From Astropecten irregularis (lineage: Eukaryota > Echinodermata > Asteroidea > Paxillosida > Astropectinidae): a stretch of 64,000 nucleotides of DNA. The DNA is taken from NCBI GenBank assembly GCA_963971285.1, contig OZ020258.1, positions 6,592,614 through 6,656,613 of the forward strand. Direction: 5' to 3'. Shown piece after piece: positions 36,762 to 62,823 of the stretch; the stretch's first letter is position 1; every line of letters begins with the position of its first letter. Below the pieces are notes generated by a model. That model did no database searches. It saw only the letters and a program-made list of their open reading frames with translations, and was not told the DNA's origin. Both the position numbers and the translations under genes were made by a program.

Positions 36762-36873
36762 ATGGAGACCACTGCCATGTGGGAGAACAGCACACAGCGC
36801 TTCGTTGAAAATTTTTGCGACAAAATTTGTGTCTCCTTTCTTCCCAGGACTAAGCAGATCTGGCAATTTGCAG
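36762..36873 (+). CDS. Candidate first coding exon (METTAMWENSTQRF...)
   Basis: The ATG sits in AAGATGG, a good animal start context, and opens 37 codons before the donor GTGAGA at 36874 (phase 1). The product includes METTAMWENSTQRFVENFC and ends TKQIWQFA. A degenerate relative at about 33850-33930 shares the donor and downstream intron. The phase fits exon A/B-type exons (E-F-A-R-K) and also the exon past the satellite at 62027. The upstream module with GAGGGCGCTATTTTGTAAAC is repeated several times in 33.8-36.8 kb. Not recognised. Confidence 0.3.
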
Positions 36874-37520
36874 GTGAGATTGGTCTTGGGTTGACTATAG
36901 ATTATCTTGAATACATTTTTAGCTTGACGTAGTACTTTTGTAGCTTTTTTGCAGCAGATTTTAAAAGCTGTCTGACATGTCTGACAGTGAGTGCGTGACA
37001 AGTTGACAACACACTAAGTTACTTGTCACTAGCTATGTTGTCTTCATCGTGAGCAACTTAGAACAACTCGCAGCCAGGTTTGAGGTTTAAAAAAGCCCTT
37101 TTCTTATTCCAAAAGCACTTGGAATATTTTACCAACGCTCCCTTTGGAACAATAGCACAATTTTTATGAAGTTCAAAACACTGTGTTCGCTGAGACAAAA
37201 TAATGTGTGACAATCTTGCCAGCATTTTCTAGTGCAGGGAGTTGACAGTGCATGAGTATACCCGTGTGCAGTGCAGTTATTTACGTTGCATGTGTGTTGA
37301 GTGCCATTTGTTGTGTCTCTGTCCTTATCTAATCTTTGCCTCGGAACTAAAAACACCTGGCAATATTAAGCTTCCTCACATAAAACAAGGATACGACTAT
37401 CAGCAGTTTACATGAGGTTTGTTAATCATGGTAACTCTCTTCTTACACTTTTACTTCTTACTCTTCTATTGTGGAACATTTGGTGATAGTGTAGGTTAGG
37501 CCACCTAAGCAGATAATGGC
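36874..37520. other. Non-coding spacer or intron
   Basis: The first ~60 bases resemble the sequence after the donor at about 33931. No further exon signal. Confidence 0.35.
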
Positions 37521-38156
37521 TTTAATGGTAATATCATTAACACTGGCGTAGACAGGGGGGGGGGGGCAGGGCCCCCTATTCATGCCCTAAAAAAAAAAAA
37601 AAAAAAAAAAAAGTATGAGGGCTCCTCCTCCTACCCCGCACTGCCCCCCCCCCCAAGACAACACCAACGTGTCTCAATGCTGGCGCGCGTATTCAGTAGG
37701 CCTAGTGCATCCAATGTGGAGGCCTGGTCAAGCCGGTATTGGCTAAAATGTACATGTTGGCCCCCCCTATTAAAAAATCCTGGCTACGCCACTGATCATA
37801 AAGTGGTTTTATCGAAGAAATACAAATTATGGGCAAAAACATAAAGACAGATAATTAACAGTCTTTTGTGAAAATTTCAGTCCCTTACAACATGTACGGT
37901 GCCCACTTCCTGAGTAAAATAGAGCCACATTTTTTTTATCTTTTATTTTTGATCTTTTAAAAGATCAAAAAGATTTTCGGTCGTTGTTTTACCAATTTCT
38001 GGATAAAATACACCATTTCAGGCGGAAAAATGTTAACGGTATACATGTTTCTACCACTACCATCGTCATACCTTGTTACTAAGTTATATACGTAAAATCT
38101 GTGAACATTTCTGTTTTGGTTTCTTACCAAAGTACATGTATGATACTGCCTTTAAA
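37521..38156. mobile_element. Family-A MITE split by a hAT-type insertion
   Basis: The left end TTTAATGGTAATATCAT and the body from 37803 to CTGCCTTTAAA at 38156 form one family-A copy, with the centre GATCTTTTAAAAGATC. Confidence 0.7.
37541..37794. mobile_element. 254-bp hAT-like MITE nested in a family-A element
   Basis: Termini CACTGGCGTAG and CTACGCCACTG are inverted. 8-bp flanking repeats ATCATTAA (37533-37540) and ATCATAAA (37795-37802) fit a hAT-type 8-bp target duplication with one change. The interior has G, C and A homopolymer runs. Confidence 0.75.
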
Positions 38157-38344
38157 AGCACTGTCAAGTTTCCACAATTGTAACCTTAATATTCAAGAGG
38201 ACTGTTGCCACCACCAAGGTATTTAGGTGACTAACTTTACAAAAGTGGTTTAAGCTACAATTAGTGACCTTAATTACACTATTAGTTTACCATACATTTT
38301 CTCCATTGACCGCCTTCAATTTTTTCTGTATTTCGTTATTCCAG

Positions 38345-38441
38345 ACTGGTAGGCCTTGGGCCAAAAATCCATGAGCTCTTTTGAAGATGAAGACAGTGAT
38401 AAAGTCCAGCAACTGCCTTGGTCACAAGAAAGATTTGATCG
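38345..38441 (+). CDS. Candidate exon with start codon (MSSFEDEDSDKVQQLPWSQE...) before the satellite
   Basis: The acceptor CGTTATTCCAG ends at 38344; the donor GTGAGT begins at 38442. All three frames read from the acceptor meet a stop, but the ATG at 38371 opens 23 codons plus two bases: MSSFEDEDSDKVQQLPWSQE then RFD. It looks like a 5'-UTR-plus-start exon of a plus-strand gene. The 195-bp satellite begins 374 bases downstream, so the following intron would contain the whole array. Family not recognised. Confidence 0.4.
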
Positions 38442-38473
38442 GTGAGTAGAACCCTTCATTACTGCATTTTAAC

Positions 38474-38535
38474 AATGGGAGACTTTGGAGAATCAGCGGT
38501 TGACTTGAAGACCGATTCTCCAAAAGTCTCCCATT
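38474..38535. repeat. Hairpin just after the 38345-38441 exon
   Basis: AATGGGAGACTTTGGAGAAT at the left pairs with ATTCTCCAAAAGTCTCCCAT at the right (one bulge), plus CGGT/ACCG in the loop. Confidence 0.8.
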
Positions 38536-38814
38536 TTGACATAACCGGTCGTAGAGGCCTCCAAGGGCTCCAAAGTTGTTAACTAAAATAACCATCAAGA
38601 CAATTTCCAGGCCCTCAAATGAGGGTTTGTGAATTAATTACTCAGCATCAAACGGTGTCAAATTGTGTCATGTATACATGTAGGATAATCGAGAAAAACT
38701 ACTAATTTTGGGTCTGACTTCCGTACGTATGTGTCCGACTATCTAAATGAAGCGTGCTTTGTGAGATCCATAGTATCACACATCTTACAGAATAAGAAGA
38801 CCTTAAGAGAAATC

Positions 38815-41800
38815 ATGTGGTCCCCCAGCAGTTTTTTTCAATTTTTGCCCAAAAGTGACTTTTTTCAGAAATGCGCGCTATCTTCCTCATAGGTCGCTAT
38901 GACTACCAGGAACCCTTTCGAACAAGAAAAATGCCAATCAACTTGTCATGCAAGGATTTTTGTGTAATTTGAGGCCATTTTGTTCGTGACTGAAACTTCA
39001 AAATTTTATGTGGTCCCCCACATGAGTTTTTTCGATTTTTGCCCCAAAACTGACTTTTTTCAGAAATGCGCGCTATCTTCCTCATAGGTCGCTATGACTA
39101 CAAGGAACCCTTTCGAACAAGAAAAATGCCAATCAACTTGTCATGCAAGGATTTTTGTGTAATTTGAGGCCATTTTGTTCATGACTGAAACTTCAAAATT
39201 TTATGTGGTCCCCCACATGAGATTTTTCGATTTTTGCCCCAAAACTGACTTTTTTCAGAAATGCGCGCTATCTTCCTCATAGGTCGCTATGACTACAAGG
39301 AACCCTTTCGAACAAGAAAAATGCCAATCAACTTGTCATGCAAGGATTTTTGTGTAATTTGAGGCCATTTTGTTCGTGACTGAAACTTCAAAATTTTATG
39401 TGGTCCCCCACATGAGTTTTTTCGATTTTTGCCCCAAAACTGACTTTTTTCAGAAATGCGCGCTATCTTCGTCATAGGTCGCTATGACTACCAGGAACCC
39501 TTTCAAACAAGAAAAATGCCAATCAACTTGTCATGCAAGGATTTTTGTGTAATTTGAGGCCATTTTGTTCATGACTGAAACTTCAAAATTTTATGTGGTC
39601 CCCCACATGAGATTTTTCGATTTTTGCCCCAAAACTGACTTTTTTCAGAAATGCGCGCTATCTTCCTCATAGGTCGCTATGACTACCAGGAACCCTTTCG
39701 AACAAGAAAAATGCCAATCAACTTGTCATGCAAGGATTTTTGTGTAATTTGAGGCGATTTTGTTCGTGACTGAAACTTCAAAATTTTATGTGGTCCCCCA
39801 CATGAGTTTTTTCGATTTTTGCCCCAAAACTGACTTTTTTCAGAAATGCGCGCTATCTTCCTCATAGGTCGCTATGACTACCAGGAACCCTTTCGAACAA
39901 GAAAAATGCCAATCAACTTGTCATGCAAGGATTTTTGTGTAATTTGAGGCCATTTTGTTCGTGACTGAAACTTCAAAATTTTATGTGGTCCCCCACATGA
40001 GTTTTTTCGATTTTTGCCCAAAAACTGACTTTTTTCAGAAATGCGCGCTATCTTCCTCATAGGTCGCTATGACTACCAGGAACCCTTTCGAACAAGAAAA
40101 ATGCCAATCAACTTGTCATGCAAGGATTTTTGTGTAATTTGAGGCCATTTTGTTCATGACTGAAACTTCAAAATTTTATGTGGTCCCCCACATGAGTTTT
40201 TTCGATTTTTGCCCAAAAACTGACTTTTTTCAGAAATGCGCGCTATCTTCCTCATAGGTCGCTATGACTACCAGGAACCCTTTCGAACAAGAAAAATGCC
40301 AATCAACTTGTCATGCAAGGATTTTTGTGTAATTTGAGGCCATTTTTTTCATGACTGAAACTTCAAAATTTTATGTGGTCCCCCACATGAGTTTTTTCGA
40401 TTTTTGCCCCAAAAACTGACTTTTTTCAGAAATGCGCGCTATCTTCCTCATAGGTCGCTATGACTACCAGGAACCCTTTCGAACAAGAAAAATGCCAATC
40501 AACTTGTCATGCAAGGATTTTTGTGTAATTTGAGGCCATTTTGTTCGTGACTGAAACTTCTAAATTTTATGTGGTCCCCCACATGAGTTTTTTCGATTTT
40601 TGCCCAAAAACTGACTTTTTTCAGAAATGCGCGCTATCTTCCTCATAGGTCGCTATGACTACAAGGAACCCTTTCGAACAAGAAAAATGCCAATCAACTT
40701 GTCATGCAAGGATTTTTGTGTAATTTGAGGCCATTTTGTTCGTGACTGAAACTTCAAAATTTTATGTGGTCCCCCACATGAGTTTTTTCGATTTTTGCCC
40801 AAAAACTGACTTTTTTCAGAAATGCGCGCTATCTTCCTCATAGGTCGCTATGACTACCAGGAACCCTTTCGAACAAGAAAAATGCCAATCAACTTGTCAT
40901 GCAAGGATTTTTGTGTAATTTGAGGCCATTTTGTTCATGACTGAAACTTCAAAATTTTATGTGGTCCCCCACATGAGATTTTTCGATTTTTGCCCCAAAA
41001 ACTGACTTTTTTCAGAAATGCGCGCTATCTTCCTCATAGGTCGCTATGACTACCAGGAACCCTTTCGAACAAGAAAAATGCCAATCAACTTGTCATGCAA
41101 GGATTTTTGTGTAATTTGAGGCCATTTTGTTCATGACTGAAACTTCAAAATTTTATGTGGTCCCCCACATGAGATTTTTCGATTTTTGCCCCAAAAACTG
41201 ACTTTTTTCAGAAATGCGCGCTATCTTCCTCATAGGTCGCTATGACTACCAGGAACCCTTTCGAACAAGAAAAATGCCAATCAACTTGTCATGCAAGGAT
41301 TTTTGTGTAATTTGAGGCCATTTTGTTCATGACTGAAACTTCAAAATTTTATGTGGTCCCCCACATGAGTTTTTTCGATTTTTGGCCAAAAAACTGACTT
41401 TTTTCAGAAATGCGCGCTATCTTCCTCATAGGTCGCTATGACTACCAGGAACCCTTTCGAACAAGAAAAATGCCAATCAACTTGTCATGCAAGGATTTTT
41501 GTGTAATTTGAGGCCATTTTGTTCGTGACTGAAACTTCTAAATTTTATGTGGTCCCCCACATGAGTTTTTTCGATTTTTGCCCAAAAACTGACTTTTTTC
41601 AGAAATGCGCGCTATCTTCCTCATAGGTCGCTATGACTACAAGGAACCCTTTCGAACAAGAAAAATGCCAATCAACTTGTCATGCAAGGATTTTTGTGTA
41701 ATTTGAGGCCATTTTGTTCGTGACTGAAACTTCAAAATTTTATGTGGTCCCCCACATGAGTTTTTTCGATTTTTGCCCAAAAACTGACTTTTTTCAGAAA

Positions 41801-44800
41801 TGCGCGCTATCTTCCTCATAGGTCGCTATGACTACAAGGAACCCTTTCGAACAAGAAAAATGCCAATCAACTTGTCATGCAAGGATTTTTGTGTAATTTG
41901 AGGCCATTTTGTTCGTGACTGAAACTTCAAAATTTTATGTGGTCCCCCACATGAGTTTTTTCGATTTTTGCCCAAAAACTGACTTTTTTCAGAAATGCGC
42001 GCTATCTTCCTCATAGGTCGCTATGACTACCAGGAACCCTTTCGAACAAGAAAAATGCCAATCAACTTGTCATGCAAGGATTTTTGTGTAATTTGAGGCC
42101 ATTTTGTTCATGACTGAAACTTCAAAATTTTATGTGGTCCCCCACATGAGATTTTTCGATTTTTGCCCCAAAAACTGACTTTTTTCAGAAATGCGCGCTA
42201 TCTTCCTCATAGGTCGCTATGACTACCAGGAACCCTTTCGAACAAGAAAAATGCCAATCAACTTGTCATGCAAGGATTTTTGTGTAATTTGAGGCCATTT
42301 TGTTCATGACTGAAACTTCAAAATTTTATGTGGTCCCCCACATGAGATTTTTCGATTTTTGCCCCAAAAACTGACTTTTTTCAGAAATGCGCGCTATCTT
42401 CCTCATAGGTCGCTATGACTACCAGGAACCCTTTCGAACAAGAAAAATGCCAATCAACTTGTCATGCAAGGATTTTTGTGTAATTTGAGGCCATTTTGTT
42501 CATGACTGAAACTTCAAAATTTTATGTGGTCCCCCACATGAGTTTTTTCGATTTTTGCCCAAAAACTGACTTTTTTCAGAAATGCGCGCTATCTTCCTCA
42601 TAGGTCGCTATGACTACAAGGAACCCTTTCGAACAAGAAAAATGCCAATCAACTTGTCATGCAAGGATTTTTGTGTAATTTGAGGCCATTTTGTTCGTGA
42701 CTGAAACTTCAAAATTTTATGTGGTCCCCCACATGAGTTTTTTCGATTTTTGCCCAAAAACTGACTTTTTTCAGAAATGCGCGCTATCTTCCTCATAGGT
42801 CGCTATGACTACCAGGAACCCTTTCGAACAAGAAAAATGCCAATCAACTTGTCATGCAAGGATTTTTGTGTAATTTGAGGCCATTTTGTTCATGACTGAA
42901 ACTTCAAAATTTTATGTGGTCCCCCACATGAGATTTTTCGATTTTTGCCCCAAAAACTGACTTTTTTCAGAAATGCGCGCTATCTTCCTCATAGGTCGCT
43001 ATGACTACCAGGAACCCTTTCGAACAAGAAAAATGCCAATCAACTTGTCATGCAAGGATTTTTGTGTAATTTGAGGCAATTTTGTTCGTGACTGAAACTT
43101 CAAAATTTTATGTGGTCCCCCGCATGAGTTTTTTCGATTTTTGCCCAAAAACTGACTTTTTTCAGAAATGCGCGCTATCTTCCTCATAGGTCGCTATGAC
43201 TACCAGGAACCCTTTCGAACAAGAAAAATGCCAATCAACTTGTCATGCAAGGATTTTTGTGTAATTTGAGGCCATTTTGTTCATGACTGAAACTTCAAAA
43301 TTTTATGTGGTCCCCCACATGAGATTTTTCGATTTTTGCCCCAAAACTGACTTTTTTCAGAAATGCGCGCTATCTTCCTCATAGGTCGCTATGACTACCA
43401 GGAACCCTTTCGAACAAGAAAAATGCCAATCAACTTGTCATGCAAGGATTTTTGTGTAATTTGAGGCCATTTTGTTCGTGACTGAAACTTCAAAATTTTA
43501 TGTGGTCCCCCACATGAGTTTTTTCGATTTTTGCCCAAAAACTGACTTTTTTCAGAAATGCGCGCTATCTTCCTCATAGGTCGCTATGACTACCAGGAAC
43601 CCTTTCGAACAAGAAAAATGCCAATCAACTTGTCATGCAAGGATTTTTGTGTAATTTGAGGCCATTTTGTTCATGACTGAAACTTCAAAATTTTATGTGG
43701 TCCCCCACATGAGTTTTTTCGATTTTTGCCCAAAAACTGACTTTTTTCAGAAATGCGCGCTATCTTCCTCATAGGTCGCTATGACTACCAGGAACCCTTT
43801 CGAACAAGAAAAATGCCAATCAACTTGTCATGCAAGGATTTTTGTGTAATTTGAGGCCATTTTGTTCATGACTGAAACTTCAAAATTTTATGTGGTCCCC
43901 CACATGAGTTTTTTCGATTTTTGCCCCAAAAACTGACTTTTTTCAGAAATGCGCGCTATCTTCCTCATAGGTCGCTATGACTACCAGGAACCCTTTCGAA
44001 CAAGAAAAATGCCAATCAACTTGTCATGCAAGGATTTTTGTGTAATTTGAGGCCATTTTGTTCGTGACTGAAACTTCTAAATTTTATGTGGTCCCCCACA
44101 TGAGTTTTTTCGATTTTTGCCCAAAAACTGACTTTTTTCAGAAATGCGCGCTATCTTCCTCATAGGTCGCTATGACTACAAGGAACCCTTTCGAACAAGA
44201 AAAATGCCAATCAACTTGTCATGCAAGGATTTTTGTGTAATTTGAGGCCATTTTGTTCGTGACTGAAACTTCAAAATTTTATGTGGTCCCCCGCATGAGT
44301 TTTTTCGATTTTTGCCCAAAAACTGACTTTTTTCAGAAATGCGCGCTATCTTCCTCATAGGTCGCTATGACTACCAGGAACCCTTTCGAACAAGAAAAAT
44401 GCCAATCAACTTGTCATGCAAGGATTTTTGTGTAATTTGAGGCCATTTTGTTCATGACTGAAACTTCAAAATTTTATGTGGTCCCCCACATGAGATTTTT
44501 CGATTTTTGCCCCAAACCTGACTTTTTTCAGAAATGCGCGCTATCTTCCTCATAGGTCGCTATGACTACCAGGAACCCTTTCGAACAAGAAAAATGCCAA
44601 TCAACTTGTCATGCAAGGATTTTTGTGTAATTTTAGGCCATTTTGTTCATGACTGAAACTTCAAAATTTTATGTGGTCCCCCACATGAGATTTTTCGATT
44701 TTTGCCCCAAAACTGACTTTTTTTCAGAAATGCGCGCTATCTTCCTCATAGGTCGCTATGACTACCAGGAACCCTTTCGAACAAGAAAAATGCCAATCAA

Positions 44801-47800
44801 CTTGTCATGCAAGGATTTTTGTGTAATTTGAGGCCATTTTGTTCATGACTGAAACTTCAAAATTTTATGTGGTCCCCCACATGAGTTTTTTCGATTTTTG
44901 CCCAAAAACTGACTTTTTTCAGAAATGCGCGCTATCTTCCTCATAGGTCGCTATGACTACCAGGAACCCTTTCGAACAAGAAAAATGCCAATCAACTTGT
45001 CATGCAAGGATTTTTGTGTAATTTGAGGCCATTTTGTTCGTGACTGAAACTTCTAAATTTTATGTGGTCCCCCACATGAGTTTTTTCGATTTTTGCCCAA
45101 AAACTGACTTTTTTCAGAAATGCGCGCTATCTTCCTCATAGGTCGCTATGACTACAAGGAACCCTTTCGAACAAGAAAAATGCCAATCAACTTGTCATGC
45201 AAGGATTTTTGTGTAATTTGAGGCCATTTTGTTCGTGACTGAAACTTCAAAATTTTATGTGGTCCCCCACATGAGTTTTTTCGATTTTTGCCCAAAAACT
45301 GACTTTTTTCAGAAATGCGCGCTATCTTCCTCATAGGTCGCTATGACTACCAGGAACCCTTTCGAACAAGAAAAATGCCAATCAACTTGTCATGCAAGGA
45401 TTTTTGTGTAATTTGAGGCCATTTTGTTCATGACTGAAACTTCAAAATTTTATGTGGTCCCCCACATGAGATTTTTCGATTTTTGCCCCAAAAACTGACT
45501 TTTTTCAGAAATGCGCGCTATCTTCCTCATAGGTCGCTATGACTACCAGGAACCCTTTCGAACAAGAAAAATGCCAATCAACTTGTCATGCAAGGATTTT
45601 TGTGTAATTTGAGGCAATTTTGTTCGTGACTGAAACTTCAAAATTTTATGTGGTCCCCCGCATGAGTTTTTTCGATTTTTGCCCAAAAACTGACTTTTTT
45701 CAGAAATGCGCGCTATCTTCCTCATAGGTCGCTATGACTACCAGGAACCCTTTCGAACAAGAAAAATGCCAATCAACTTGTCATGCAAGGATTTTTGTGT
45801 AATTTGAGGCCATTTTGTTCATGACTGAAACTTCAAAATTTTATGTGGTCCCCCACATGAGATTTTTCGATTTTTGCCCCAAAACTGACTTTTTTCAGAA
45901 ATGCGCGCTATCTTCCTCATAGGTCGCTATGACTACCAGGAACCCTTTCGAACAAGAAAAATGCCAATCAACTTGTCATGCAAGGATTTTTGTGTAATTT
46001 GAGGCCATTTTGTTCGTGACTGAAACTTCAAAATTTTATGTGGTCCCCCACATGAGTTTTTTCGATTTTTGCCCAAAAACTGACTTTTTTCAGAAATGCG
46101 CGCTATCTTCCTCATAGGTCGCTATGACTACCAGGAACCCTTTCGAACAAGAAAAATGCCAATCAACTTGTCATGCAAGGATTTTTGTGTAATTTGAGGC
46201 CATTTTGTTCATGACTGAAACTTCAAAATTTTATGTGGTCCCCCACATGAGTTTTTTCGATTTTTGCCCAAAAACTGACTTTTTTCAAAAATGCGCGCTA
46301 TCTTCCTCATAGGTCGCTATGACTACCAGGAACCCTTTCGAACAAGAAAAATGCCAATCAACTTGTCATGCAAGGATTTTTGTGTAATTTGAGGCCATTT
46401 TGTTCATGACTGAAACTTCAAAATTTTATGTGGTCCCCCACATGAGTTTTTTCGATTTTTGCCCCAAAAACTGACTTTTTTCAGAAATGCGCGCTATCTT
46501 CCTCATAGGTCGCTATGACTACCAGGAACCCTTTCGAACAAGAAAAATGCCAATCAACTTGTCATGCAAGGATTTTTGTGTAATTTGAGGCCATTTTGTT
46601 CGTGACTGAAACTTCTAAATTTTATGTGGTCCCCCACATGAGTTTTTTCGATTTTTGCCCAAAAACTGACTTTTTTCAGAAATGCGCGCTATCTTCCTCA
46701 TAGGTCGCTATGACTACAAGGAACCCTTTCGAACAAGAAAAATGCCAATCAACTTGTCATGCAAGGATTTTTGTGTAATTTGAGGCCATTTTGTTCGTGA
46801 CTGAAACTTCAAAATTTTATGTGGTCCCCCGCATGAGTTTTTTCGATTTTTGCCCAAAAACTGACTTTTTTCAGAAATGCGCGCTATCTTCCTCATAGGT
46901 CGCTATGACTACCAGGAACCCTTTCGAACAAGAAAAATGCCAATCAACTTGTCATGCAAGGATTTTTGTGTAATTTGAGGCCATTTTGTTCATGACTGAA
47001 ACTTCAAAATTTTATGTGGTCCCCCACATGAGATTTTTCGATTTTTGCCCCAAACCTGACTTTTTTCAGAAATGCGCGCTATCTTCCTCATAGGTCGCTA
47101 TGACTACCAGGAACCCTTTCGAACAAGAAAAATGCCAATCAACTTGTCATGCAAGGATTTTTGTGTAATTTTAGGCCATTTTGTTCATGACTGAAACTTC
47201 AAAATTTTATGTGGTCCCCCACATGAGATTTTTCGATTTTTGCCCCAAAACTGACTTTTTTTCAGAAATGCGCGCTATCTTCCTCATAGGTCGCTATGAC
47301 TACCAGGAACCCTTTCGAACAAGAAAAATGCCAATCAACTTGTCATGCAAGGATTTTTGTGTAATTTGAGGCCATTTTGTTCATGACTGAAACTTCAAAA
47401 TTTTATGTGGTCCCCCACATGAGTTTTTTCGATTTTTGCCCAAAAACTGACTTTTTTCAGAAATGCGCGCTATCTTCCTCATAGGTCGCTATGACTACCA
47501 GGAACCCTTTCGAACAAGAAAAATGCCAATCAACTTGTCATGCAAGGATTTTTGTGTAATTTGAGGCCATTTTGTTCATGACTGAAACTTCAAAATTTTA
47601 TGTGGTCCCCCACATGAGTTTTTTCAATTTTTGCCCCAAAAACTGACTTTTTTCAGAAATGCGCGCTTTCTTCCTCATAGGTCGCTATGACTACCAGGAA
47701 CCCTTTCGAACAAGAAAAATGCCAATCAACTTGTCATGCAAGGATTTTTGTGTAATTTGAGGCCATTTTGTTCGTGACTGAAACTTCTAAATTTTATGTG

Positions 47801-50800
47801 GTCCCCCACATGAGTTTTTTCGATTTTTGCCCAAAAACTGACTTTTTTCAGAAATGCGCGCTATCTTCCTCATAGGTCGCTATGACTACCAGGAACCCTT
47901 TCGAACAAGAAAAATGCCAATCAACTTGTCATGCAAGGATTTTTGTGTAATTTGAGGCCATTTTGTTCATGACTGAAACTTCAAAATTTTATGTGGTCCC
48001 CCACATGAGATTTTTCGATTTTTGCCCCAAAACTGACTTTTTTCAGAAATGCGCGCTATCTTCCTCATAGGTCGCTATGACTACCAGGAACCCTTTCGAA
48101 CAAGAAAAATGCCAATCAACTTGTCATGCAAGGATTTTTGTGTAATTTGAGGCGATTTTGTTCGTGACTGAAACTTCAAAATTTTATGTGGTCCCCCACA
48201 TGAGTTTTTTTGATTTTTGCCCCAAAACTGACTTTTTTCAGAAATGCGCGCTATCTTCCTCATAGGTCGCTATGACAACCAGGAACCCTTTCGAACAAGA
48301 AAAATGCCAATCAACTTGTCATGCAAGGATTTTTGTGTAATTTGAGGCCATTTTGTTCGTGACTGAAACTTCAAAATTTTATGTGGTCCCCCACATGAGT
48401 TTTTTCGATTTTTGCCCAAAAACTGACTTTTTTCAGAAATGCGCGCTATCTTCCTCATAGGTCGCTATGACTACCAGGAACCCTTTCGAACAAGAAAAAT
48501 GCCAATCAACTTGTCATGCCAGGATTTTTGTGTAATTTGAGGCCATTTTGTTCATGACTGAAACTTCAACATTTTATGTGGTCCCCCACATGAGTTTTTT
48601 CGATTTTTGCCCAAAAACTGACTTTTTTCAGAAATGCGCGCTATCTTCCTCATAGGTCGCTATGACTACCAGGAACCCTTTCGAACAAGAAAAATGCCAA
48701 TCAACTTGTCATGCAAGGATTTTTGTGTAATTTGAGGCCATTTTGTTCATGACTGAAACTTCAAAATTTTATGTGGTCCCCCACATGAGTTTTTTCGATT
48801 TTTGCCCCAAAAACTGACTTTTTTCAGAAATGCGCGCTATCTTCCTCATAGGTCGCTATGACTACCAGGAACCCTTTCGAACAAGAAAAATGCCAATCAA
48901 CTTGTCATGCAAGGATTTTTGTGTAATTTGAGGCCATTTTTTTCATGACTGAAACTTCAAAATTTTATGTGGTCCCCCACATGAGATTTTTCGATTTTTG
49001 CCCCAAAACTGACTTTTTTCAGAAATGCGCGCTATTTTCCTCATAGGTCGCTATGACTACCAGGAACCCTTTCGAACAAGAAAAATGCCAATCAACTTGT
49101 CATGCAAGGATTTTTGTGTAATTTGAGGCCATTTTGTTCGTGACTGAAACTTCAAAATTTTATGTGGTCCCCCACATGAGTTTTTTCGATTTTTGCCCAA
49201 AAACTGACTTTTTTCAGAAATGCGCGCTATCTTCCTCATAGGTCGCTATGACTACAAGGAACCCTTTCGAACAAGAAAAATGCCAATCAACTTGTCATGC
49301 AAGGATTTTTGTGTAATTTGAGGCCATTTTGTTCATGACTGAAACTTCAAAATTTTATGTGGTCCCCCACATGAGATTTTTCGATTTTTGCCCCAAAACT
49401 GACTTTTTTCAGAAATGCGCGCTATCTTCCTCATAGGTCGCTATGACTACAAGGAACCCTTTCGAACAAGAAAAATGCCAATCAACTTGTCATGCAAGGA
49501 TTTTTGTGTAATTTGAGGCCATTTTGTTCGTGACTGAAACTTCAAAATTTTATGTGGTCCCCCACATGAGTTTTTTCGATTTTTGCCCCAAAACTGACTT
49601 TTTTCAGAAATGCGCGCTATCTTCGTCATAGGTCGCTATGACTACCAGGAACCCTTTCAAACAAGAAAAATGCCAATCAACTTGTCATGCAAGGATTTTT
49701 GTGTAATTTGAGGCCATTTTGTTCATGACTGAAACTTCAAAATTTTATGTGGTCCCCCACATGAGATTTTTCGATTTTTGCCCCAAAACTGACTTTTTTC
49801 AGAAATGCGCGCTATCTTCCTCATAGGTCGCTATGACTACCAGGAACCCTTTCGAACAAGAAAAATGCCAATCAACTTGTCATGCAAGGATTTTTGTGTA
49901 ATTTGAGGCGATTTTGTTCGTGACTGAAACTTCAAAATTTTATGTGGTCCCCCACATGAGTTTTTTCGATTTTTGCCCCAAAACTGACTTTTTTCAGAAA
50001 TGCGCGCTATCTTCCTCATAGGTCGCTATGACTACCAGGAACCCTTTCGAACAAGAAAAATGCCAATCAACTTGTCATGCAAGGATTTTTGTGTAATTTG
50101 AGGCCATTTTGTTCGTGACTGAAACTTCAAAATTTTATGTGGTCCCCCACATGAGTTTTTTCGATTTTTGCCCAAAAACTGACTTTTTTCAGAAATGCGC
50201 GCTATCTTCCTCATAGGTCGCTATGACTACCAGGAACCCTTTCGAACAAGAAAAATGCCAATCAACTTGTCATGCAAGGATTTTTGTGTAATTTGAGGCC
50301 ATTTTGTTCATGACTGAAACTTCAAAATTTTATGTGGTCCCCCACATGAGTTTTTTCGATTTTTGCCCAAAAACTGACTTTTTTCAGAAATGCGCGCTAT
50401 CTTCCTCATAGGTCGCTATGACTACCAGGAACCCTTTCGAACAAGAAAAATGCCAATCAACTTGTCATGCAAGGATTTTTGTGTAATTTGAGGCCATTTT
50501 GTTCATGACTGAAACTTCAAAATTTTATGTGGTCCCCCACATGAGTTTTTTCGATTTTTGCCCCAAAAACTGACTTTTTTCAGAAATGCGCGCTATCTTC
50601 CTCATAGGTCGCTATGACTACCAGGAACCCTTTCGAACAAGAAAAATGCCAATCAACTTGTCATGCAAGGATTTTTGTGTAATTTGAGGCCATTTTGTTC
50701 GTGACTGAAACTTCTAAATTTTATGTGGTCCCCCACATGAGTTTTTTCGATTTTTGCCCAAAAACTGACTTTTTTCAGAAATGCGCGCTATCTTCCTCAT

Positions 50801-53800
50801 AGGTCGCTATGACTACAAGGAACCCTTTCGAACAAGAAAAATGCCAATCAACTTGTCATGCAAGGATTTTTGTGTAATTTGAGGCCATTTTGTTCGTGAC
50901 TGAAACTTCAAAATTTTATGTGGTCCCCCACATGAGTTTTTTCGATTTTTGCCCAAAAACTGACTTTTTTCAGAAATGCGCGCTATCTTCCTCATAGGTC
51001 GCTATGACTACCAGGAACCCTTTCGAACAAGAAAAATGCCAATCAACTTGTCATGCAAGGATTTTTGTGTAATTTGAGGCCATTTTGTTCATGACTGAAA
51101 CTTCAAAATTTTATGTGGTCCCCCACATGAGATTTTTCGATTTTTGCCCCAAAAACTGACTTTTTTCAGAAATGCGCGCTATCTTCCTCATAGGTCGCTA
51201 TGACTACCAGGAACCCTTTCGAACAAGAAAAATGCCAATCAACTTGTCATGCAAGGATTTTTGTGTAATTTGAGGCAATTTTGTTCGTGACTGAAACTTC
51301 AAAATTTTATGTGGTCCCCCGCATGAGTTTTTTCGATTTTTGCCCAAAAACTGACTTTTTTCAGAAATGCGCGCTATCTTCCTCATAGGTCGCTATGACT
51401 ACCAGGAACCCTTTCGAACAAGAAAAATGCCAATCAACTTGTCATGCAAGGATTTTTGTGTAATTTGAGGCCATTTTGTTCATGACTGAAACTTCAAAAT
51501 TTTATGTGGTCCCCCACATGAGATTTTTCGATTTTTGCCCCAAACCTGACTTTTTTCAGAAATGCGCGCTATCTTCCTCATAGGTCGCTATGACTACCAG
51601 GAACCCTTTCGAACAAGAAAAATGCCAATCAACTTGTCATGCAAGGATTTTTGTGTAATTTTAGGCCATTTTGTTCATGACTGAAACTTCAAAATTTTAT
51701 GTGGTCCCCCACATGAGATTTTTCGATTTTTGCCCCAAAACTGACTTTTTTTCAGAAATGCGCGCTATCTTCCTCATAGGTCGCTATGACTACCAGGAAC
51801 CCTTTCGAACAAGAAAAATGCCAATCAACTTGTCATGCAAGGATTTTTGTGTAATTTGAGGCCATTTTGTTCATGACTGAAACTTCAAAATTTTATGTGG
51901 TCCCCCACATGAGTTTTTTCGATTTTTGCCCAAAAACTGACTTTTTTCAGAAATGCGCGCTATCTTCCTCATAGGTCGCTATGACTACCAGGAACCCTTT
52001 CGAACAAGAAAAATGCCAATCAACTTGTCATGCAAGGATTTTTGTGTAATTTGAGGCCATTTTGTTCATGACTGAAACTTCAAAATTTTATGTGGTCCCC
52101 CACATGAGTTTTTTCAATTTTTGCCCCAAAAACTGACTTTTTCAGAAATGCGCGCTTTCTTCCTCATAGGTCGCTATGACTACCAGGAACCCTTTCGAAC
52201 AAGAAAAATGCCAATCAACTTGTCATGCAAGGATTTTTGTGTAATTTGAGGCCATTTTGTTCGTGACTGAAACTTCTAAATTTTATGTGGTCCCCCACAT
52301 GAGTTTTTTCGATTTTTGCCCAAAAACTGACTTTTTTCAGAAATGCGCGCTATCTTCCTCATAGGTCGCTATGACTACCAGGAACCCTTTCGAACAAGAA
52401 AAATGCCAATCAACTTGTCATGCAAGGATTTTTGTGTAATTTGAGGCCATTTTGTTCATGACTGAAACTTCAAAATTTTATGTGGTCCCCCACATGAGAT
52501 TTTTCGATTTTTGCCCCAAAACTGACTTTTTTCAGAAATGCGCGCTATCTTCCTCATAGGTCGCTATGACTACCAGGAACCCTTTCGAACAAGAAAAATG
52601 CCAATCAACTTGTCATGCAAGGATTTTTGTGTAATTTGAGGCGATTTTGTTCGTGACTGAAACTTCAAAATTTTATGTGGTCCCCCACATGAGTTTTTTT
52701 GATTTTTGCCCCAAAACTGACTTTTTTCAGAAATGCGCGCTATCTTCCTCATAGGTCGCTATGACAACCAGGAACCCTTTCGAACAAGAAAAATGCCAAT
52801 CAACTTGTCATGCAAGGATTTTTGTGTAATTTGAGGCCATTTTGTTCGTGACTGAAACTTCAAAATTTTATGTGGTCCCCCACATGAGTTTTTTCGATTT
52901 TTGCCCAAAAACTGACTTTTTTCAGAAATGCGCGCTATCTTCCTCATAGGTCGCTATGACTACCAGGAACCCTTTCGAACAAGAAAAATGCCATTCAACT
53001 TGTCATGCCAGGATTTTTGTGTAATTTGAGGCCATTTTGTTCATGACTGAAACTTCAACATTTTATGTGGTCCCCCACATGAGTTTTTTCGATTTTTGCC
53101 CAAAAACTGACTTTTTTCAGAAATGCGCGCTATCTTCCTCATAGGTCGCTATGACTACCAGGAACCCTTTCGAACAAGAAAAATGCCAATCAACTTGTCA
53201 TGCAAGGATTTTTGTGTAATTTGAGGCCATTTTGTTCATGACTGAAACTTCAAAATTTTATGTGGTCCCCCACATGAGTTTTTTCGATTTTTGCCCCAAA
53301 AACTGACTTTTTTCAGAAATGCGCGCTATCTTCCTCATAGGTCGCTATGACTACCAGGAACCCTTTCGAACAAGAAAAATGCCAATCAACTTGTCATGCA
53401 AGGATTTTTGTGTAATTTGAGGCCATTTTTTTCATGACTGAAACTTCAAAATTTTATGTGGTCCCCCACATGAGATTTTTCGATTTTTGCCCCAAAACTG
53501 ACTTTTTTCAGAAATGCGCGCTATTTTCCTCATAGGTCGCTATGACTACCAGGAACCCTTTCGAACAAGAAAAATGCCAATCAACTTGTCATGCAAGGAT
53601 TTTTGTGTAATTTGAGGCCATTTTGTTCGTGACTGAAACTTCAAAATTTTATGTGGTCCCCCACATGAGTTTTTTTGATTTTTGCCCAAAAACTGACTTT
53701 TTTCAGAAATGCGCGCTATCTTCCTCATAGGTCGCTATGACTACCAGGAACCCTTTCGAACAAGAAAAATGCCAATCAACTTGTCATGCAAGGATTTTTG

Positions 53801-56800
53801 TGTAATTTTAGGCCATTTTGTTCGTGACTGAAACTTCAAAATTTTATGTGGTCCCCCACATGAGTTTTTTCGATTTTTGCCCAAAAACTGACTTTTTTCA
53901 GAAATGCGCGCTATCTTCCTCATAGGTCGCTATGACTACCAGGAACCCTTTCGAACAAGAAAAATGCCAATCAACTTGTCATGCAAGGATTTTTGTGTAA
54001 TTTGAGGCCATTTTGTTCATGACTGAAACTTCAAAATTTTATGTGGTCCCCCACATGAGATTTTTCGATTTTTGCCCCAAAACTGACTTTTTTCAGAAAT
54101 GCGCGCTATCTTCCTCATAGGTCGCTATGACTACCAGGAACCCTTTCGAACAAGAAAAATGCCAATCAACTTGTCATGCAAGGATTTTTGTGTAATTTGA
54201 GGCAATTTTGTTCGTGACTGAAACTTCAAAATTTTATGTGGTCCCCCACATGAGTTTTTTCGATTTTTGCCCAAAAACTGACTTTTTTCACAAATGCGCG
54301 ATATCTTCCTCATAGGTCGCTATGACTACCAGGAACCCTTTCGAACAAGAAAAATGCCAATCAACTTGTCATGCAAGGATTTTTGTGTAATTTGAGGCCA
54401 TTTTGTTCATGACTGAAACTTCAAAATTTTATGTGGTCCCCCACATGAGTTTTTTCGATTTTTGCCCAAAAACTGACTTTTTTCAGAAATGCTCGTTATC
54501 TTCCTCATAGGTCGCTATGACTACCAGGAACCCTTTCGAACAAGAAAAATGCCAATCAACTTGTCATGCAATGATTTTTGTGTAATTTGAGGCCATTTTG
54601 TTCGTGACTGAAACTTCAAAATTTTATGTGGTCCCCCACATGAGTTTTTTCAATTTTTGCCCAAAAACTGACTTTTTTCAGAAATGCGCGCTATCTTCCT
54701 CATAGGTCGCTATGACTACCAGGAACCCTTTCGAACAAGAAAAATGCCAATCAACTTGTCATGCAAGGATTTTTGTGTAATTTGAGGCCATTTTGTTCGT
54801 GACTGAAACTTCAAAATTTTATGTGGTCCCCCACATGAGTTTTTTCGATTTTTGCCCAAAAACTGACTTTTTTCAGAAATGCGCGCTATCTTCCTCATAG
54901 GTCGCTATGACTACCAGGAACCCTTTCGAACAAGAAAAATGCCAATCAACTTGTCATGCCAGGATTTTTGTGTAATTTGAGGCCATTTTGTTCATGACTG
55001 AAACTTCAACATTTTATGTGGTCCCCCACATGAGTTTTTTCGATTTTTGCCCAAAAACTGACTTTTTTCAGAAATGCGCGCTATCTTCCTCATAGGTCGC
55101 TATGACTACCAGGAACCCTTTCGAACAAGAAAAATGCCAATCAACTTGTTATGCAAGGATTTTTGTGTAATTTGAGGCCATTTTGTTCGTGACTGAAACT
55201 TCTAAATTTTATGTGGTCCCCCACATGAGTTTTTTCGATTTTTGCCCAAAAACTGACTTTTTTCAGAAATGCGCGCTATCTTCCTCATAGGTCGCTATGA
55301 CTACCAGGAACCCTTTCGAACAAGAAAAATGCCAATCAACTTGTCATGCAAGGATTTTTGTGTAATTTGAGGCCATTTTGTTCATGACTGAAACTTCAAA
55401 ATTTTATGTGGTCCCCCACATGAGATTTTTCGATTTTTGCCCCAAAACTGACTTTTTTCAGAAATGCGCGCTATCTTCCTCATAGGTCGCTATGACTACC
55501 AGGAACCCTTTCGAACAAGAAAAATGCCAATCAACTTGTCATGCAAGGATTTTTGTGTAATTTGAGGCGATTTTGTTCGTGACTGAAACTTCAAAATTTT
55601 ATGTGGTCCCCCACATGAGTTTTTTTGATTTTTGCCCCAAAACTGACTTTTTTCAGAAATGCGCGCTATCTTCCTCATAGGTCGCTATGACAACCAGGAA
55701 CCCTTTCGAACAAGAAAAATGCCAATCAACTTGTCATGCAAGGATTTTTGTGTAATTTGAGGCCATTTTGTTCGTGACTGAAACTTCAAAATTTTATGTG
55801 GTCCCCCACATGAGTTTTTTCGATTTTTGCCCAAAAACTGACTTTTTTCAGAAATGCGCGCTATCTTCCTCATAGGTCGCTATGACTACCAGGAACCCTT
55901 TCGAACAAGAAAAATGCCAATCAACTTGTCATGCCAGGATTTTTGTGTAATTTGAGGCCATTTTGTTCATGACTGAAACTTCAACATTTTATGTGGTCCC
56001 CCACATGAGTTTTTTCGATTTTTGCCCAAAAACTGACTTTTTTCAGAAATGCGCGCTATCTTCCTCATAGGTCGCTATGACTACCAGGAACCCTTTCGAA
56101 CAAGAAAAATGCCAATCAACTTGTCATGCAAGGATTTTTGTGTAATTTGAGGCCATTTTGTTCATGACTGAAACTTCAAAATTTTATGTGGTCCCCCACA
56201 TGAGTTTTTTCGATTTTTGCCCCAAAAACTGACTTTTTTTAGAAATGCGCGCTATCTTCCTCATAGGTCGCTATGACTACCAGGAACCCTTTCGAACAAG
56301 AAAAATGCCAATCAACTTGTCATGCAAGGATTTTTGTGTAATTTGAGGCCATTTTTTTCATGACTGAAACTTCAAAATTTTATGTGGTCCCCCACATGAG
56401 ATTTTTCGATTTTTGCCCCAAAACTGACTTTTTTCAGAAATGCGCGCTATTTTCCTCATAGGTCGCTATGACTACCAGGAACCCTTTCGAACAAGAAAAA
56501 TGCCAATCAACTTGTCATGCAAGGATTTTTGTGTAATTTGAGGCCATTTTGTTCGTGACTGAAACTTCAAAATTTTATGTGGTCCCCCACATGAGTTTTT
56601 TCGATTTTTGCCCAAAAACTGACTTTTTTCAGAAATGCGCGCTATCTTCCTCATAGGTCGCTATGACTACCAGGAACCCTTTCGAACAAGAAAAATGCCA
56701 ATCAACTTGTCATGCAAGGATTTTTGTGTAATTTGAGGCCATTTTGTTCGTGACTGAAACTTCAAAATTTTATGTGGTCCCCCACATGAGTTTTTTCGAT

Positions 56801-59800
56801 TTTTGCCCAAAAACTGACTTTTTTCAGAAATGCGCGCTATCTTCCTCATAGGTCGCTATGACTACCAGGAACCCTTTCGAACAAGAAAAATGCCAATCAA
56901 CTTGTCATGCAAGGATTTTTGTGTAATTTGAGGCCATTTTGTTCATGACTGAAACTTCAAAATTTTATGTGGTCCCCCACATGAGATTTTTCGATTTTTG
57001 CCCCAAAACTGACTTTTTTCAGAAATGCGCGCTATCTTCCTCATAGGTCGCTATGACTACCAGGAACCCTTTCGAACAAGAAAAATGCCAATCAACTTGT
57101 CATGCAAGGATTTTTGTGTAATTTGAGGCAATTTTGTTCGTGACTGAAACTTCAAAATTTTATGTGGTCCCCCACATGAGTTTTTTCGATTTTTGCCCAA
57201 AAACTGACTTTTTTCACAAATGCGCGATATCTTCCTCATAGGTCGCTATGACTACCAGGAACCCTTTCGAACAAGAAAAATGCCAATCAACTTGTCATGC
57301 AAGGATTTTTGTGTAATTTGAGGCCATTTTGTTCATGACTGAAACTTCAAAATTTTATGTGGTCCCCCACATGAGTTTTTTCGATTTTTGCCCAAAAACT
57401 GACTTTTTTCAGAAATGCTCGTTATCTTCCTCATAGGTCGCTATGACTACCAGGAACCCTTTCGAACAAGAAAAATGCCAATCAACTTGTCATGCAATGA
57501 TTTTTGTGTAATTTGAGGCCATTTTGTTCGTGACTGAAACTTCAAAATTTTATGTGGTCCCCCACATGAGTTTTTTCAATTTTTGCCCAAAAACTGACTT
57601 TTTTCAGAAATGCGCGCTATCTTCCTCATAGGTCGCTATGACTACCAGGAACCCTTTCGAACAAGAAAAATGCCAATCAACTTGTCATGCAAGGATTTTT
57701 GTGTAATTTGAGGCCATTTTGTTCGTGACTGAAACTTCAAAATTTTATGTGGTCCCCCACATGAGTTTTTTCGATTTTTGCCCAAAAACTGACTTTTTTC
57801 AGAAATGCGCGCTATCTTCCTCATAGGTCGCTATGACTACCAGGAACCCTTTCGAACAAGAAAAATGCCAATCAACTTGTCATGCCAGGATTTTTGTGTA
57901 ATTTGAGGCCATTTTGTTCATGACTGAAACTTCAACATTTTATGTGGTCCCCCACATGAGTTTTTTCGATTTTTGCCCAAAAACTGACTTTTTTCAGAAA
58001 TGCGCGCTATCTTCCTCATAGGTCGCTATGACTACCAGGAACCCTTTCGAACAAGAAAAATGCCAATCAACTTGTCATGCAAGGATTTTTGTGTAATTTG
58101 AGGCCATTTTGTTCATGACTGAAACTTCAAAATTTTATGTGGTCCCCCACATGAGTTTTTTCGATTTTTGCCCCAAAAACTGACTTTTTTCAGAAATGCG
58201 CGCTATCTTCCTCATAGGTCGCTATGACTACCAGGAACCCTTTCGAACAAGAAAAATGCCAATCAACTTGTCATGCAAGGATTTTTGTGTAATTTGAGGC
58301 CATTTTGTTCGTGACTGAAACTTCAAAATTTTATGTGGTCCCCCACATGAGTTTTTTCGATTTTTGCCCAAAAACTGACTTTTTTCAGAAATGCGCGCTA
58401 TCTTCCTCATAGGTCGCTATGACTACCAGGAACCCTTTCGAACAAGAAAAATGCCAATCAACTTGTCATGCAAGGATTTTTGTGTAATTTGAGGCCATTT
58501 TGTTCATGACTGAAACTTCAAAATTTTATGTGGTCCCCCACATGAGTTTTTTCGATTTTTGCCCAAAAACTGACTTTTTTCAGAAATGCGCGCTATCTTC
58601 CTCATAGGTCGCTATGACTACCAGGAACCCTTTCGAACAAGAAAAATGCCAATCAACTTGTCATGCAAGGATTTTTGTGTAATTTGAGGCCATTTTGTTC
58701 ATGACTGAAACTTCAAAATTTTATGTGGTCCCCCACATGAGTTTTTTCGATTTTTGCCCCAAAAACTGACTTTTTTCAGAAATGCGCGCTATCTTCCTCA
58801 TAGGTCGCTATGACTACCAGGAACCCTTTCGAACAAGAAAAATGCCAATCAACTTGTCATGCAAGGATTTTTGTGTAATTTGAGGCCATTTTGTTCGTGA
58901 CTGAAACTTCTAAATTTTATGTGGTCCCCCACATGAGTTTTTTCGATTTTTGCCCAAAAACTGACTTTTTTCAGAAATGCGCGCTATCTTCCTCATAGGT
59001 CGCTATGACTACAAGGAACCCTTTCGAACAAGAAAAATGCCAATCAACTTGTCATGCAAGGATTTTTGTGTAATTTGAGGCCATTTTGTTCGTGACTGAA
59101 ACTTCAAAATTTTATGTGGTCCCCCACATGAGTTTTTTCGATTTTTGCCCAAAAACTGACTTTTTTCAGAAATGCGCGCTATCTTCCTCATAGGTCGCTA
59201 TGACTACCAGGAACCCTTTCGAACAAGAAAAATGCCAATCAACTTGTCATGCAAGGATTTTTGTGTAATTTGAGGCCATTTTGTTCATGACTGAAACTTC
59301 AAAATTTTATGTGGTCCCCCACATGAGATTTTTCGATTTTTGCCCCAAAACTGACTTTTTTCAGAAATGCGCGCTATCTTCCTCATAGGTCGCTATGACT
59401 ACCAGGAACCCTTTCGAACAAGAAAAATGCCAATCAACTTGTCATGCAAGGATTTTTGTGTAATTTGAGGCAATTTTGTTCGTGACTGAAACTTCAAAAT
59501 TTTATGTGGTCCCCCGCATGAGTTTTTTCGATTTTTGCCCCAAAACTGACTTTTTTCAGAAATGCGCGCTATCTTCCTCATAGGTCGCTATGACTACCAG
59601 GAACCCTTTCGAACAAGAAAAATGCCAATCAACTTGTCATGCAAGGATTTTTGTGTAATTTGAGGCCATTTTGTTCATGACTGAAACTTCAAAATTTTAT
59701 GTGGTCCCCCACATGAGATTTTTCGATTTTTGCCCCAAACCTGACTTTTTTCAGAAATGCGCGCTATCTTCCTCATAGGTCGCTATGACTACCAGGAACC

Positions 59801-61900
59801 CTTTCGAACAAGAAAAATGCCAATCAACTTGTCATGCAAGGATTTTTGTGTAATTTTAGGCCATTTTGTTCATGACTGAAACTTCAAAATTTTATGTGGT
59901 CCCCCACATGAGATTTTTCGATTTTTGCCCCAAAACTGACTTTTTTTCAGAAATGCGCGCTATCTTCCTCATAGGTCGCTATGACTACCAGGAACCCTTT
60001 CGAACAAGAAAAATGCCAATCAACTTGTCATGCAAGGATTTTTGTGTAATTTGAGGCCATTTTGTTCATGACTGAAACTTCAAAATTTTATGTGGTCCCC
60101 CACATGAGTTTTTTCGATTTTTGCCCAAAAACTGACTTTTTTCAGAAATGCGCGCTATCTTCCTCATAGGTCGCTATGACTACCAGGAACCCTTTCGAAC
60201 AAGAAAAATGCCAATCAACTTGTCATGCAAGGATTTTTGTGTAATTTGAGGCCATTTTGTTCATGACTGAAACTTCAAAATTTTATGTGGTCCCCCACAT
60301 GAGTTTTTTCAATTTTTGCCCCAAAAACTGACTTTTTTCAGAAATGCGCGCTTTCTTCCTCATAGGTCGCTATGACTACCAGGAACCCTTTCGAACAAGA
60401 AAAATGCCAATCAACTTGTCATGCAAGGATTTTTGTGTAATTTGAGGCCATTTTGTTCGTGACTGAAACTTCTAAATTTTATGTGGTCCCCCACATGAGT
60501 TTTTTCGATTTTTGCCCAAAAACTGACTTTTTTCAGAAATGCGCGCTATCTTCCTCATAGGTCGCTATGACTACCAGGAACCCTTTCGAACAAGAAAAAT
60601 GCCAATCAACTTGTCATGCAAGGATTTTTGTGTAATTTGAGGCCATTTTGTTCATGACTGAAACTTCAAAATTTTATGTGGTCCCCCACATGAGATTTTT
60701 CGATTTTTGCCCCAAAACTGACTTTTTTCAGAAATGCGCGCTATCTTCCTCATAGGTCGCTATGACTACCAGGAACCCTTTCGAACAAGAAAAATGCCAA
60801 TCAACTTGTCATGCAAGGATTTTTGTGTAATTTGAGGCGATTTTGTTCGTGACTGAAACTTCAAAATTTTATGTGGTCCCCCACATGAGTTTTTTTGATT
60901 TTTGCCCCAAAACTGACTTTTTTCAGAAATGCGCGCTATCTTCCTCATAGGTCGCTATGACAACCAGGAACCCTTTCGAACAAGAAAAATGCCAATCAAC
61001 TTGTCATGCAAGGATTTTTGTGTAATTTGAGGCCATTTTGTTCGTGACTGAAACTTCAAAATTTTATGTGGTCCCCCACATGAGTTTTTTCGATTTTTGC
61101 CCAAAAACTGACTTTTTTCAGAAATGCGCGCTATCTTCCTCATAGGTCGCTATGACTACCAGGAACCCTTTCGAACAAGAAAAATGCCATTCAACTTGTC
61201 ATGCCAGGATTTTTGTGTAATTTGAGGCCATTTTGTTCATGACTGAAACTTCAACATTTTATGTGGTCCCCCACATGAGTTTTTTCGATTTTTGCCCAAA
61301 AACTGACTTTTTTCAGAAATGCGCGCTATCTTCCTCATAGGTCGCTATGACTACCAGGAACCCTTTCGAACAAGAAAAATGCCAATCAACTTGTCATGCA
61401 AGGATTTTTGTGTAATTTGAGGCCATTTTGTTCATGACTGAAACTTCAAAATTTTATGTGGTCCCCCACATGAGTTTTTTCGATTTTTGCCCAAAAACTG
61501 ACTTTTTTCAGAAATGCGCGCTATCTTCCTCATAGGTCACTATGACTACCAGGAACCCTTTCGAACAAGAAAAATGCCAATCAACTTGTCATGCAAGGAT
61601 TTTTTTTGTAATTTGAGGCCATTTTGTTCGTGACTGAAACTTCAAAATTTTATGTGGTCCCCCACATGAGTTTTTTCGATTTTTGCCCAAAAACTGACTT
61701 TTTTCAGAAATGCGCGCTATCTTCCTCATAGGTCGCTATGACTACCAGGAACCCTTTCGAACAAGAAAAATGCCAATCAACTTGTCATGCAAGGATTTTT
61801 GTGTAATTTGAGGCCATTTTGTTCATGACTGAAACTTCAAAATTTTATGTGGTCCCCCACATGAGTTTTTTCGATTTTTTCCCCAAAACTGACTTTTTTC
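38815..61900. repeat. 195-bp satellite array, about 118 tandem units with higher-order structure
   Basis: A head-to-tail tandem repeat of a 195-bp unit (some 196 or 194 bp) across 23,086 bases with no foreign insertion. Each unit contains ATGTGGTCCCCCACATGAG, TTTTTTCAGAAATGCGCGC, a GGTCGCTATGAC block, CCCTTTCGAACAAG and AACTTGTCATGCAAGGA. Units differ at a few diagnostic sites: CATGACTG/CGTGACTG, TTCAAAAT/TTCTAAAT/TTCAACAT, GAGATTTT/GAGTTTTT, C-run and A-run length before CTGACTTT, CTACCAGG/CTACAAGG/CAACCAGG, GAGGCC/GAGGCA/GAGGCG. The first unit is the most diverged and the array ends mid-unit on both sides. Many units carry a 60-codon minus-strand open frame; since 195 is divisible by three this is a by-product of the repeat, not a gene family. 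Confidence 0.97.
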
Positions 61901-62005
61901 ATAAAATTCTTGAAACTGGAATGAACTGAAGGAAGAAGCTGTCATTTCAATCACGACAGGTATAAAAGTGCTTGCCCTGAATTATTTCTTGACTGAATAC
62001 TGTAG

Positions 62006-62115
62006 GTCTAGGATCCAACGTTTCAGGCAACGAGCAGGAGCAACTCTCAGCGCTACTGGAAATCCTTCTGTATATCAACAATTTCATCCTGGTCACTAAG
62101 GAACAGCATGTCTAG
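62006..62115 (+). CDS. Possible terminal exon past the satellite array
   Basis: Acceptors TGTAG (ending 62005) and TTTCAG (ending 62026) precede GC-rich sequence open in two frames. Phase 2 in, as from the 38371 exon: QRAGATLSATGNPSVYQQF, stop at 62097-62099. Phase 1 in: NEQEQLSALLEILLYINNF then ILVTKEQHV, stop at 62113-62115. Neither matches a family I know. Weak candidate. Confidence 0.22.
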
Positions 62116-62235
62116 TACCTCATGTCCTCAGTCGTCATCTTTCTCCTACAGGATGCTTGTTGCTGGGTTGAGTCTTCCATCGTTGCACCAGCTGGTCTTG
62201 GCCTGTTTTGTGCTCTAGAGCTCTAAAAAAAAAAG

Positions 62236-62556
62236 GTGCCATCCGATAAATTATCACGGGAAGACGGCATCCTAAAATCAAGATGTCGACTTCCTTTAGA
62301 TAATTTATAATATGCAAATTGGACTTGCCCTTCACAGACATGGATGAGCACTGTATACACAATACTCGTGAGTGCACATGAACAAATACATGCTGGCTCA
62401 GGTGGAATTCGATCCCACAACCTCCTGCTTTGAACCCACCTGTTATTTATTTTTTTTTCAAATCATTTAAGATTCATGAGATAATTTATCATGGGATCAA
62501 GATGTCGACATCCTAAAATCAAGATGTCGACATCCTGAGATAATTCAGGATGGCAC
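62236..62556. mobile_element. MITE with GTGCCATCC termini
   Basis: GTGCCATCC at 62236-62244 and GGATGGCAC at 62548-62556 are exact inverses. AAAATCAAGATGTCGAC occurs near both ends and twice on the right. A SINE occupies the middle. Confidence 0.65.
62310..62430 (-). repeat. tRNA-derived SINE nested in the MITE
   Basis: ATGCAAATTGGACTTGCCCT, GACATGGATGAGCACT and GGCTCAGGTGGAATTCGATC match the SINE at 30028-30194. The head is truncated after CCTCCTGCTT. Confidence 0.65.
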
Positions 62557-62823
62557 TTCTAGAGTTCCATACCTTTACATACAGACATATCTAAAAATGT
62601 ATATTAAATACGATTGTCAAAGAAATTAATTTGTACAGATGCAAAATTTGAAGTGGATCAAGAATCTAGAATCGTATATTTATTCTTTTCATACTGGCTG
62701 TATAGAAATTCATATAAATCTATTACAAAATTATCATTGCTGAACAAAGTTTCAAAGTTCGTAACAATGATGTGCGCCAATATGAATGACGACCACAAAT
62801 CTTGCAGAAATGGTTTTACAATA

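Follow-up and report, generated by a model that had tools for sequence, protein, structure and literature searches.

The window analysed here, a 64,000-nucleotide stretch of the Astropecten irregularis genome (contig C22, positions 6592614-6656613; assembly of 475.7 Mb in 168 contigs), holds a 195/196-bp satellite array of about 118 units on the plus strand at 38815-61905. The array has a period of 195, 118.3 copies and 98% matches, and unit-by-unit alignment recovers 118 whole units, as an earlier note on this DNA had estimated; 38 of them are distinct and 45 of 198 columns vary. Pairwise identity among the units averages 98.1%, and a single pair of units differs on average at 3.8 positions. 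The first unit carries 11 differences from the consensus, a count equalled by unit m69 (in part through alignment slip), and the last whole unit carries none, so divergence is found at one edge only. Both ends of the array abut non-satellite sequence.

On the left lies a dispersed segment of about 2 kb, the leader (36450-38813, plus strand), parts of which share about 80-99% identity between loci. It matches 95 stretches in the genome, several per locus, and in the subset of 11 other leader loci that we inspected, parts of it lie upstream of the same satellite in every case; L031-L034 were picked on the leader match alone, the remaining loci sitting among satellite clusters. At L033 the leader is followed by one satellite unit, and at L031 the array begins mid-unit. 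The one leader locus inspected on contig C10 (L038, C10:11371000-11377999) has the leader followed by another satellite, about 192 bp in unit length and more diverged, and the array C22_7.06 has no leader within the 626 bases taken beyond it. Two exon-like stretches occur in the leader, near 36763-36877 and 38345-38440. The peptide of the first was found 16 times in this genome, the window included, with an internal stop in three copies and none in the other 13, hinting at a multicopy exon that may once have been coding. We make no claim that the leader is part of a known gene; by eye, the second stretch has no open frame common to its copies. Upstream of the leader is a 220-bp tandem repeat (35840-36416, plus strand), and L030 and L035 have a similar repeat in the upstream position.

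The right flank (61906-62640, plus strand) is a different dispersed repeat, a copy of which adjoins a 21-bp satellite at L014 on C15. The idea that it marks where a transposed unit really ends was rejected, since it matches a separate repeat that stands beside other sequence elsewhere. Three arrays on C9 (L020, L024, L035) are followed by sequence with an exon-like piece of hydroxymethylbilane synthase. The porphobilinogen deaminase family gave at least 151 scored matches; among the matches listed, nearly all are to one exon-sized part (positions ~31-93 of 207) and most have an internal stop; the matches lie largely in the chromosomal clusters of the satellite flanks. They occur at the same three loci, at 12.0-12.76 Mb and 0-38 kb of C9, at 3.9-6.3 Mb of C12, and on C15 and C19. 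Near L035 the copies follow one another at intervals of 1,262-1,268 bases, next to a 53-bp minisatellite. At C139:41086-41886 an uninterrupted 417-residue frame holds both halves of the family and no introns, which suggests that contig C139 may be bacterial.

Elsewhere in the window, three similar open frames on the minus strand (26384-26878, 28400-28951 and 31771-32238), of which the two tested match Cupin_5 (DUF985), suggest a small gene family at this locus. Matches to a histone 3' stem-loop and to two tRNAs, at 18357-18403, 18562-18636 and 30120-30192, score above the gathering threshold. Beside the C22_7.06 array, bases 1-1529 of L028 (minus strand) hold a retroelement-like open frame that matches DUF1759 and also, weakly and below the cut-off, an aspartyl protease.

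Block copies within the array

The earlier note had claimed that blocks recur at 13, 15, 23, 42 and 52 units. Unit starts bear out the offsets: m23 to m36 (+2538), m77 to m92 (+2926), m46 to m69 (+4490), m63 to m105 (+8196) and m2 to m54 (+10154). Unit alignments were used here, ungapped comparison at these offsets having been dropped for three of the five blocks because the 195/196 phase drift inflates mismatches. Across 24 rare variant states, recurrence is most frequent at lags of 42, 15, 23, 13 and 65 units (20, 19, 17, 15 and 12 pairs). When unit order was shuffled 2000 times, the mean unit difference at lags 42, 13 and 15 was matched 0, 1 and 0 times, respectively. With correction for all 89 lags, the 1% level lies at -3.8; lags 42 (z -4.1) and 13 (z -4.0) go beyond it, and lag 15 (z -3.5) falls just short. 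Lags 23 and 52 are weaker array-wide (reached by 31 and 66 of 2000 shuffles) because their blocks span only part of the array. Lags 65 (42+23) and 38 (23+15) appear to be sums of other lags. The longest exact runs of units are 7, 6 and 6, whereas 500 shuffles gave 5 at most, and for the full tandem block of 15 units the longest counterpart among 1000 shuffles was 8; small tandem blocks of about 4 units arise by chance, some qualifying block being present in 5 of 40 shuffles.

Two blocks are complete. The copies of the 13-unit block occupy 42519-45042 (m19-m32) and 45057-47580 (m32-m45), and align over 12.9 units with 1 mismatch. Those of the 15-unit block occupy 52225-55150 (m69-m84) and 55151-58076 (m84-m99), and align over 15.0 units with 4 mismatches or, in a second alignment, over 14.9 units with 6. 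All four lie on the plus strand with approximate limits. Whole copies of these blocks differ by 1-7 mismatches, compared with the mean of 3.8 for a single pair of units. In each case block and lag have the same length and the second copy begins where the first ends, which identifies these two, the freshest events, as tandem duplications. Adjacent in-phase copies with a hybrid unit at the join were seen at one of the two joins tested. Unit m84 (55015-55209, plus strand) equals m99 in its left part, save for one private change, and m69 in its right part, placing the exchange point inside the unit. The 13-unit join, m32, is no clean hybrid of m19 and m45; this boundary may have been altered afterwards, or the event may have been more complex.

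The remaining lags are represented by partial copies, likewise on the plus strand with approximate limits. For lag 23 these are 46818-49186 (m42-m54) and ~51308-53675, with a base-level segment of 7.9 units and 1 mismatch; for lag 42, 49979-53296 (m58-m75) and ~58174-61492, with segments of 11.0 and 5.9 units holding 2 and 0 mismatches; for lag 52, 38884-41124 (m1-m12) and ~49037-51278, with 11.5 units and 2 mismatches. Length is 0.53, 0.40 and 0.21 of the lag, respectively, so the events of 23, 42 and 52 units are ones we infer from incomplete copies, which require later insertions or truncation. Greedy collapse of the array took out the two complete tandem events; among the 90 units left, the threshold was passed by no other full tandem block.

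These results refine the earlier description in several respects. The blocks exist, although the one at +2538 begins at about 42.5 kb and not 41.6, and the others reach somewhat further than had been proposed. The TTTTAGGCC variant, cited as a single-base error carried along with its block, is indeed present at the four places named, but the array holds five (44631, 47169, 51659, 53806 and 59854); that at 53806 sits in a different unit type, m77, and is therefore recurrent or recombined and not carried along. As for a readable phylogeny of duplications, two complete events can be read, the rest surviving only as partial copies once the collapse halts at 90 units.

Adjacent units are not specially alike (z of +1.6, +2.7, +0.4 and +0.9 at lags 1-4; mean +1.4). 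In a simple, unfitted simulation with geometric step sizes and infinite sites (12 replicates per setting), mean exchange steps of 1-2 units gave a mean lag 1-4 z of -18.3 to -7.9, and steps of 4 units gave -5.5 to -3.2, the highest replicate reaching -0.5. Steps of 8 units gave -1.0 to -0.9 (highest 1.2) and steps of 15-25 units +0.1 to +0.4 (highest 2.0). The pattern in the window is thus matched by simulated steps of 15-25 units and not by those of 1-4.

Sister arrays across the genome

A 20-mer of the unit, allowing at most 1 mismatch, occurs at 5,293 places in the genome (2466 forward, 2827 reverse; reversed-pattern control 0 and 0), and at one such 20-mer per unit the satellite would total about 1 Mb. 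Long head-to-tail arrays of this one unit are found at several loci. We sampled 12 arrays, including that of the window, on C9, C12, C14, C19 and C22, 11 of them with at least 30 units, and left out L039, the stretch beside C22_7.69. The comparison of all arrays kept units with an anchor spacing of 170-220 bases, few being dropped. Six arrays (C9_12.63, C9_12.09, C22_7.69 and those on C12, C14 and C19) reach the edge of the sequence taken, and their block lists are partial.

In all 11 arrays with at least 30 units the longest unit run exceeds that of each of 60 shuffles, and the lags differ between arrays. Among the top segments listed for each array, ones with a length of 0.91-1.04 of the lag, spanning about 7-31 units, occur in 7 of 11 arrays, and ones of at least 0.77 in all 11. 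Short-lag likeness is strongest in C9_12.70 (z -5.5 to -3.6 at lags 1-4), followed by C9_12.79 (-3.1 at lag 2), C22_7.69 (-2.6) and C9_12.09 (-2.2, both at lag 1); growth by large steps may therefore not be universal across arrays.

Units are closer to their array-mates than to units elsewhere: 804 of 857 units in the 12 arrays are strictly nearest to a member of their own array, this nearness being weakest in C9_12.48 (1/9) and C9_12.09 (24/33), and five units (two in C9_12.79, three in C9_12.09) have an exact match in another array. Within the window, all 117 units compared with those of the sampled arrays have their nearest relative inside the array. The earlier note had set the block structure against simple homogenisation, a false contrast, because block duplication is one way of homogenising. 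On average, window units differ at 8.9-13.0 positions from units of the C9 arrays, at 11.1 from those of C22_7.06 and at 26.2 from those of the diverged C22_7.69; similarity is thus not tracking chromosome.

Origin of the block structure

The most probable reading, to which we assign a probability of roughly 0.8, is that the array grew by multi-unit, in-phase unequal exchange, or its equivalent by break-induced replication, acting locally. The offsets are whole numbers of units, which indicates exchange in phase. An interstitial array would expand and turn over through out-of-register homologous exchange in large steps, of about 7-31 units (1.4-6 kb), and not by single units or a few at once. 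With every event a second copy of a block would arise directly behind the first, the two meeting in a hybrid unit, and later events would cut or part-copy earlier blocks, producing nested offsets. Unequal sister-chromatid exchange is the simplest candidate agent, and break-induced replication would leave an identical product. Founding arrays would have spread between chromosomes along with the leader, as a segmental duplication. Several observations weigh against this reading: the unclean join at m32, the partial copies at lags 23, 42 and 52, the chance appearance of small tandem blocks in shuffles, the short-lag likeness in some other arrays, the five units with exact matches between arrays, and the divergence at one edge only. 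The succession of large unequal exchanges proposed in the earlier note accords with block lengths equal to the lag in the two freshest events, the hybrid m84 and the older partial lags around them; the order of events beyond those two is inferred.

The main doubt about this record concerns the assembly of the window array. Repeats of 195 bp that are 98% identical across 23 kb are hard to assemble, and an assembler could have duplicated or wrongly joined blocks, or jumped between haplotypes, leaving some copies unreal; the copies of the 13-unit block differ at a single site, and in other arrays eight of the segments listed, 10-31 units long, have no mismatch at all. Such an artefact is nevertheless very unlikely, given that window copies hold private changes (58A in m39, 56T in m90, 137T in m84), that the array joins non-satellite sequence at both ends, and that blocks with differing lags recur in 11 of 11 arrays. 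Gene conversion without change of length, copying tracts of many units onto other positions, would likewise leave rare variants shared at fixed offsets and could account for the partial copies at lags 23 and 52. It would yield neither the match of block length to lag seen in the freshest events nor a hybrid unit at the join, and we regard it as highly improbable. The same low standing is given to excised circles bearing a block and re-inserted in the array: they predict in-phase copies and could also move the satellite to the other chromosomes where the unit recurs, but re-insertion at any homologous site would rarely be adjacent, and the freshest copies are.

Break-induced replication proper, in which a collapsed fork re-invades several units back and recopies a block with no reciprocal exchange, is a stronger contender, if at somewhat less than even odds, and overlaps the preferred reading, whose agent is left open. 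It predicts the same head-to-tail, in-phase copies and, in passages of PMC8997354, is proposed for nested human higher-order repeats. Nothing in the data sets it apart from sister exchange, and the fold of the unit (z -1.43; 16 of 200 shuffles at least as good) gives no sign of a strong fork-stalling structure. A strong unit fold as a fork-stalling site was itself a weak candidate, barely better than shuffles.

Growth by multi-unit exchange has known counterparts. In Smith's 1976 unequal-exchange model of satellite evolution, as outlined in passages of PMC8997354, out-of-register tandem duplications, nested blocks and within-array homogeneity appear as they do here; unlike the model as given there, the window array needs no steps of one or a few units, and such steps fail to give its lag pattern in simulation. 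The break-induced replication model of Rice, in the same passages, gives the same product of nested tandem blocks but is proposed for centromeres. Human alpha-satellite higher-order repeats, attributed to saltatory amplification in parts of PMC11062924, similarly duplicate multi-unit blocks together. The window array differs from them, as they are described there, in having no single regularly repeated n-unit block, in units that are about 98% identical to each other, and in its size of 23 kb, not megabases. Block copies in the window are more alike than the units within a block, as in higher-order repeats, but no n-unit block is reiterated regularly along the array, the collapse stopping after two tandem events. 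With lags of 13, 15, 23, 42 and 52, none of them periodic, an alpha-satellite-type higher-order repeat was rejected.

A bolder and unlikely extension is that growth in this satellite family is confined to large steps, with exchanges of fewer than about 7 units suppressed, and that arrays are founded at new chromosomal sites by a dispersed leader able to carry one of several unrelated satellites, so that the leader would be the mobile or duplicating agent. The process itself, tandem duplication of whole blocks in a satellite that undergoes concerted evolution, is already known, and the window array is a clear example of it. Block-wise satellite growth is usually argued from megabase centromere arrays. 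What we describe is known satellite-DNA behaviour, unusually clear in this array; comparable histories, each array having its own, are seen in the sister arrays examined. A single genome provides a dozen short arrays built of one unit, most following a shared leader and each with readable recent block duplications. Since these replicate arrays keep their block records, the distribution of exchange step sizes becomes measurable instead of assumed.
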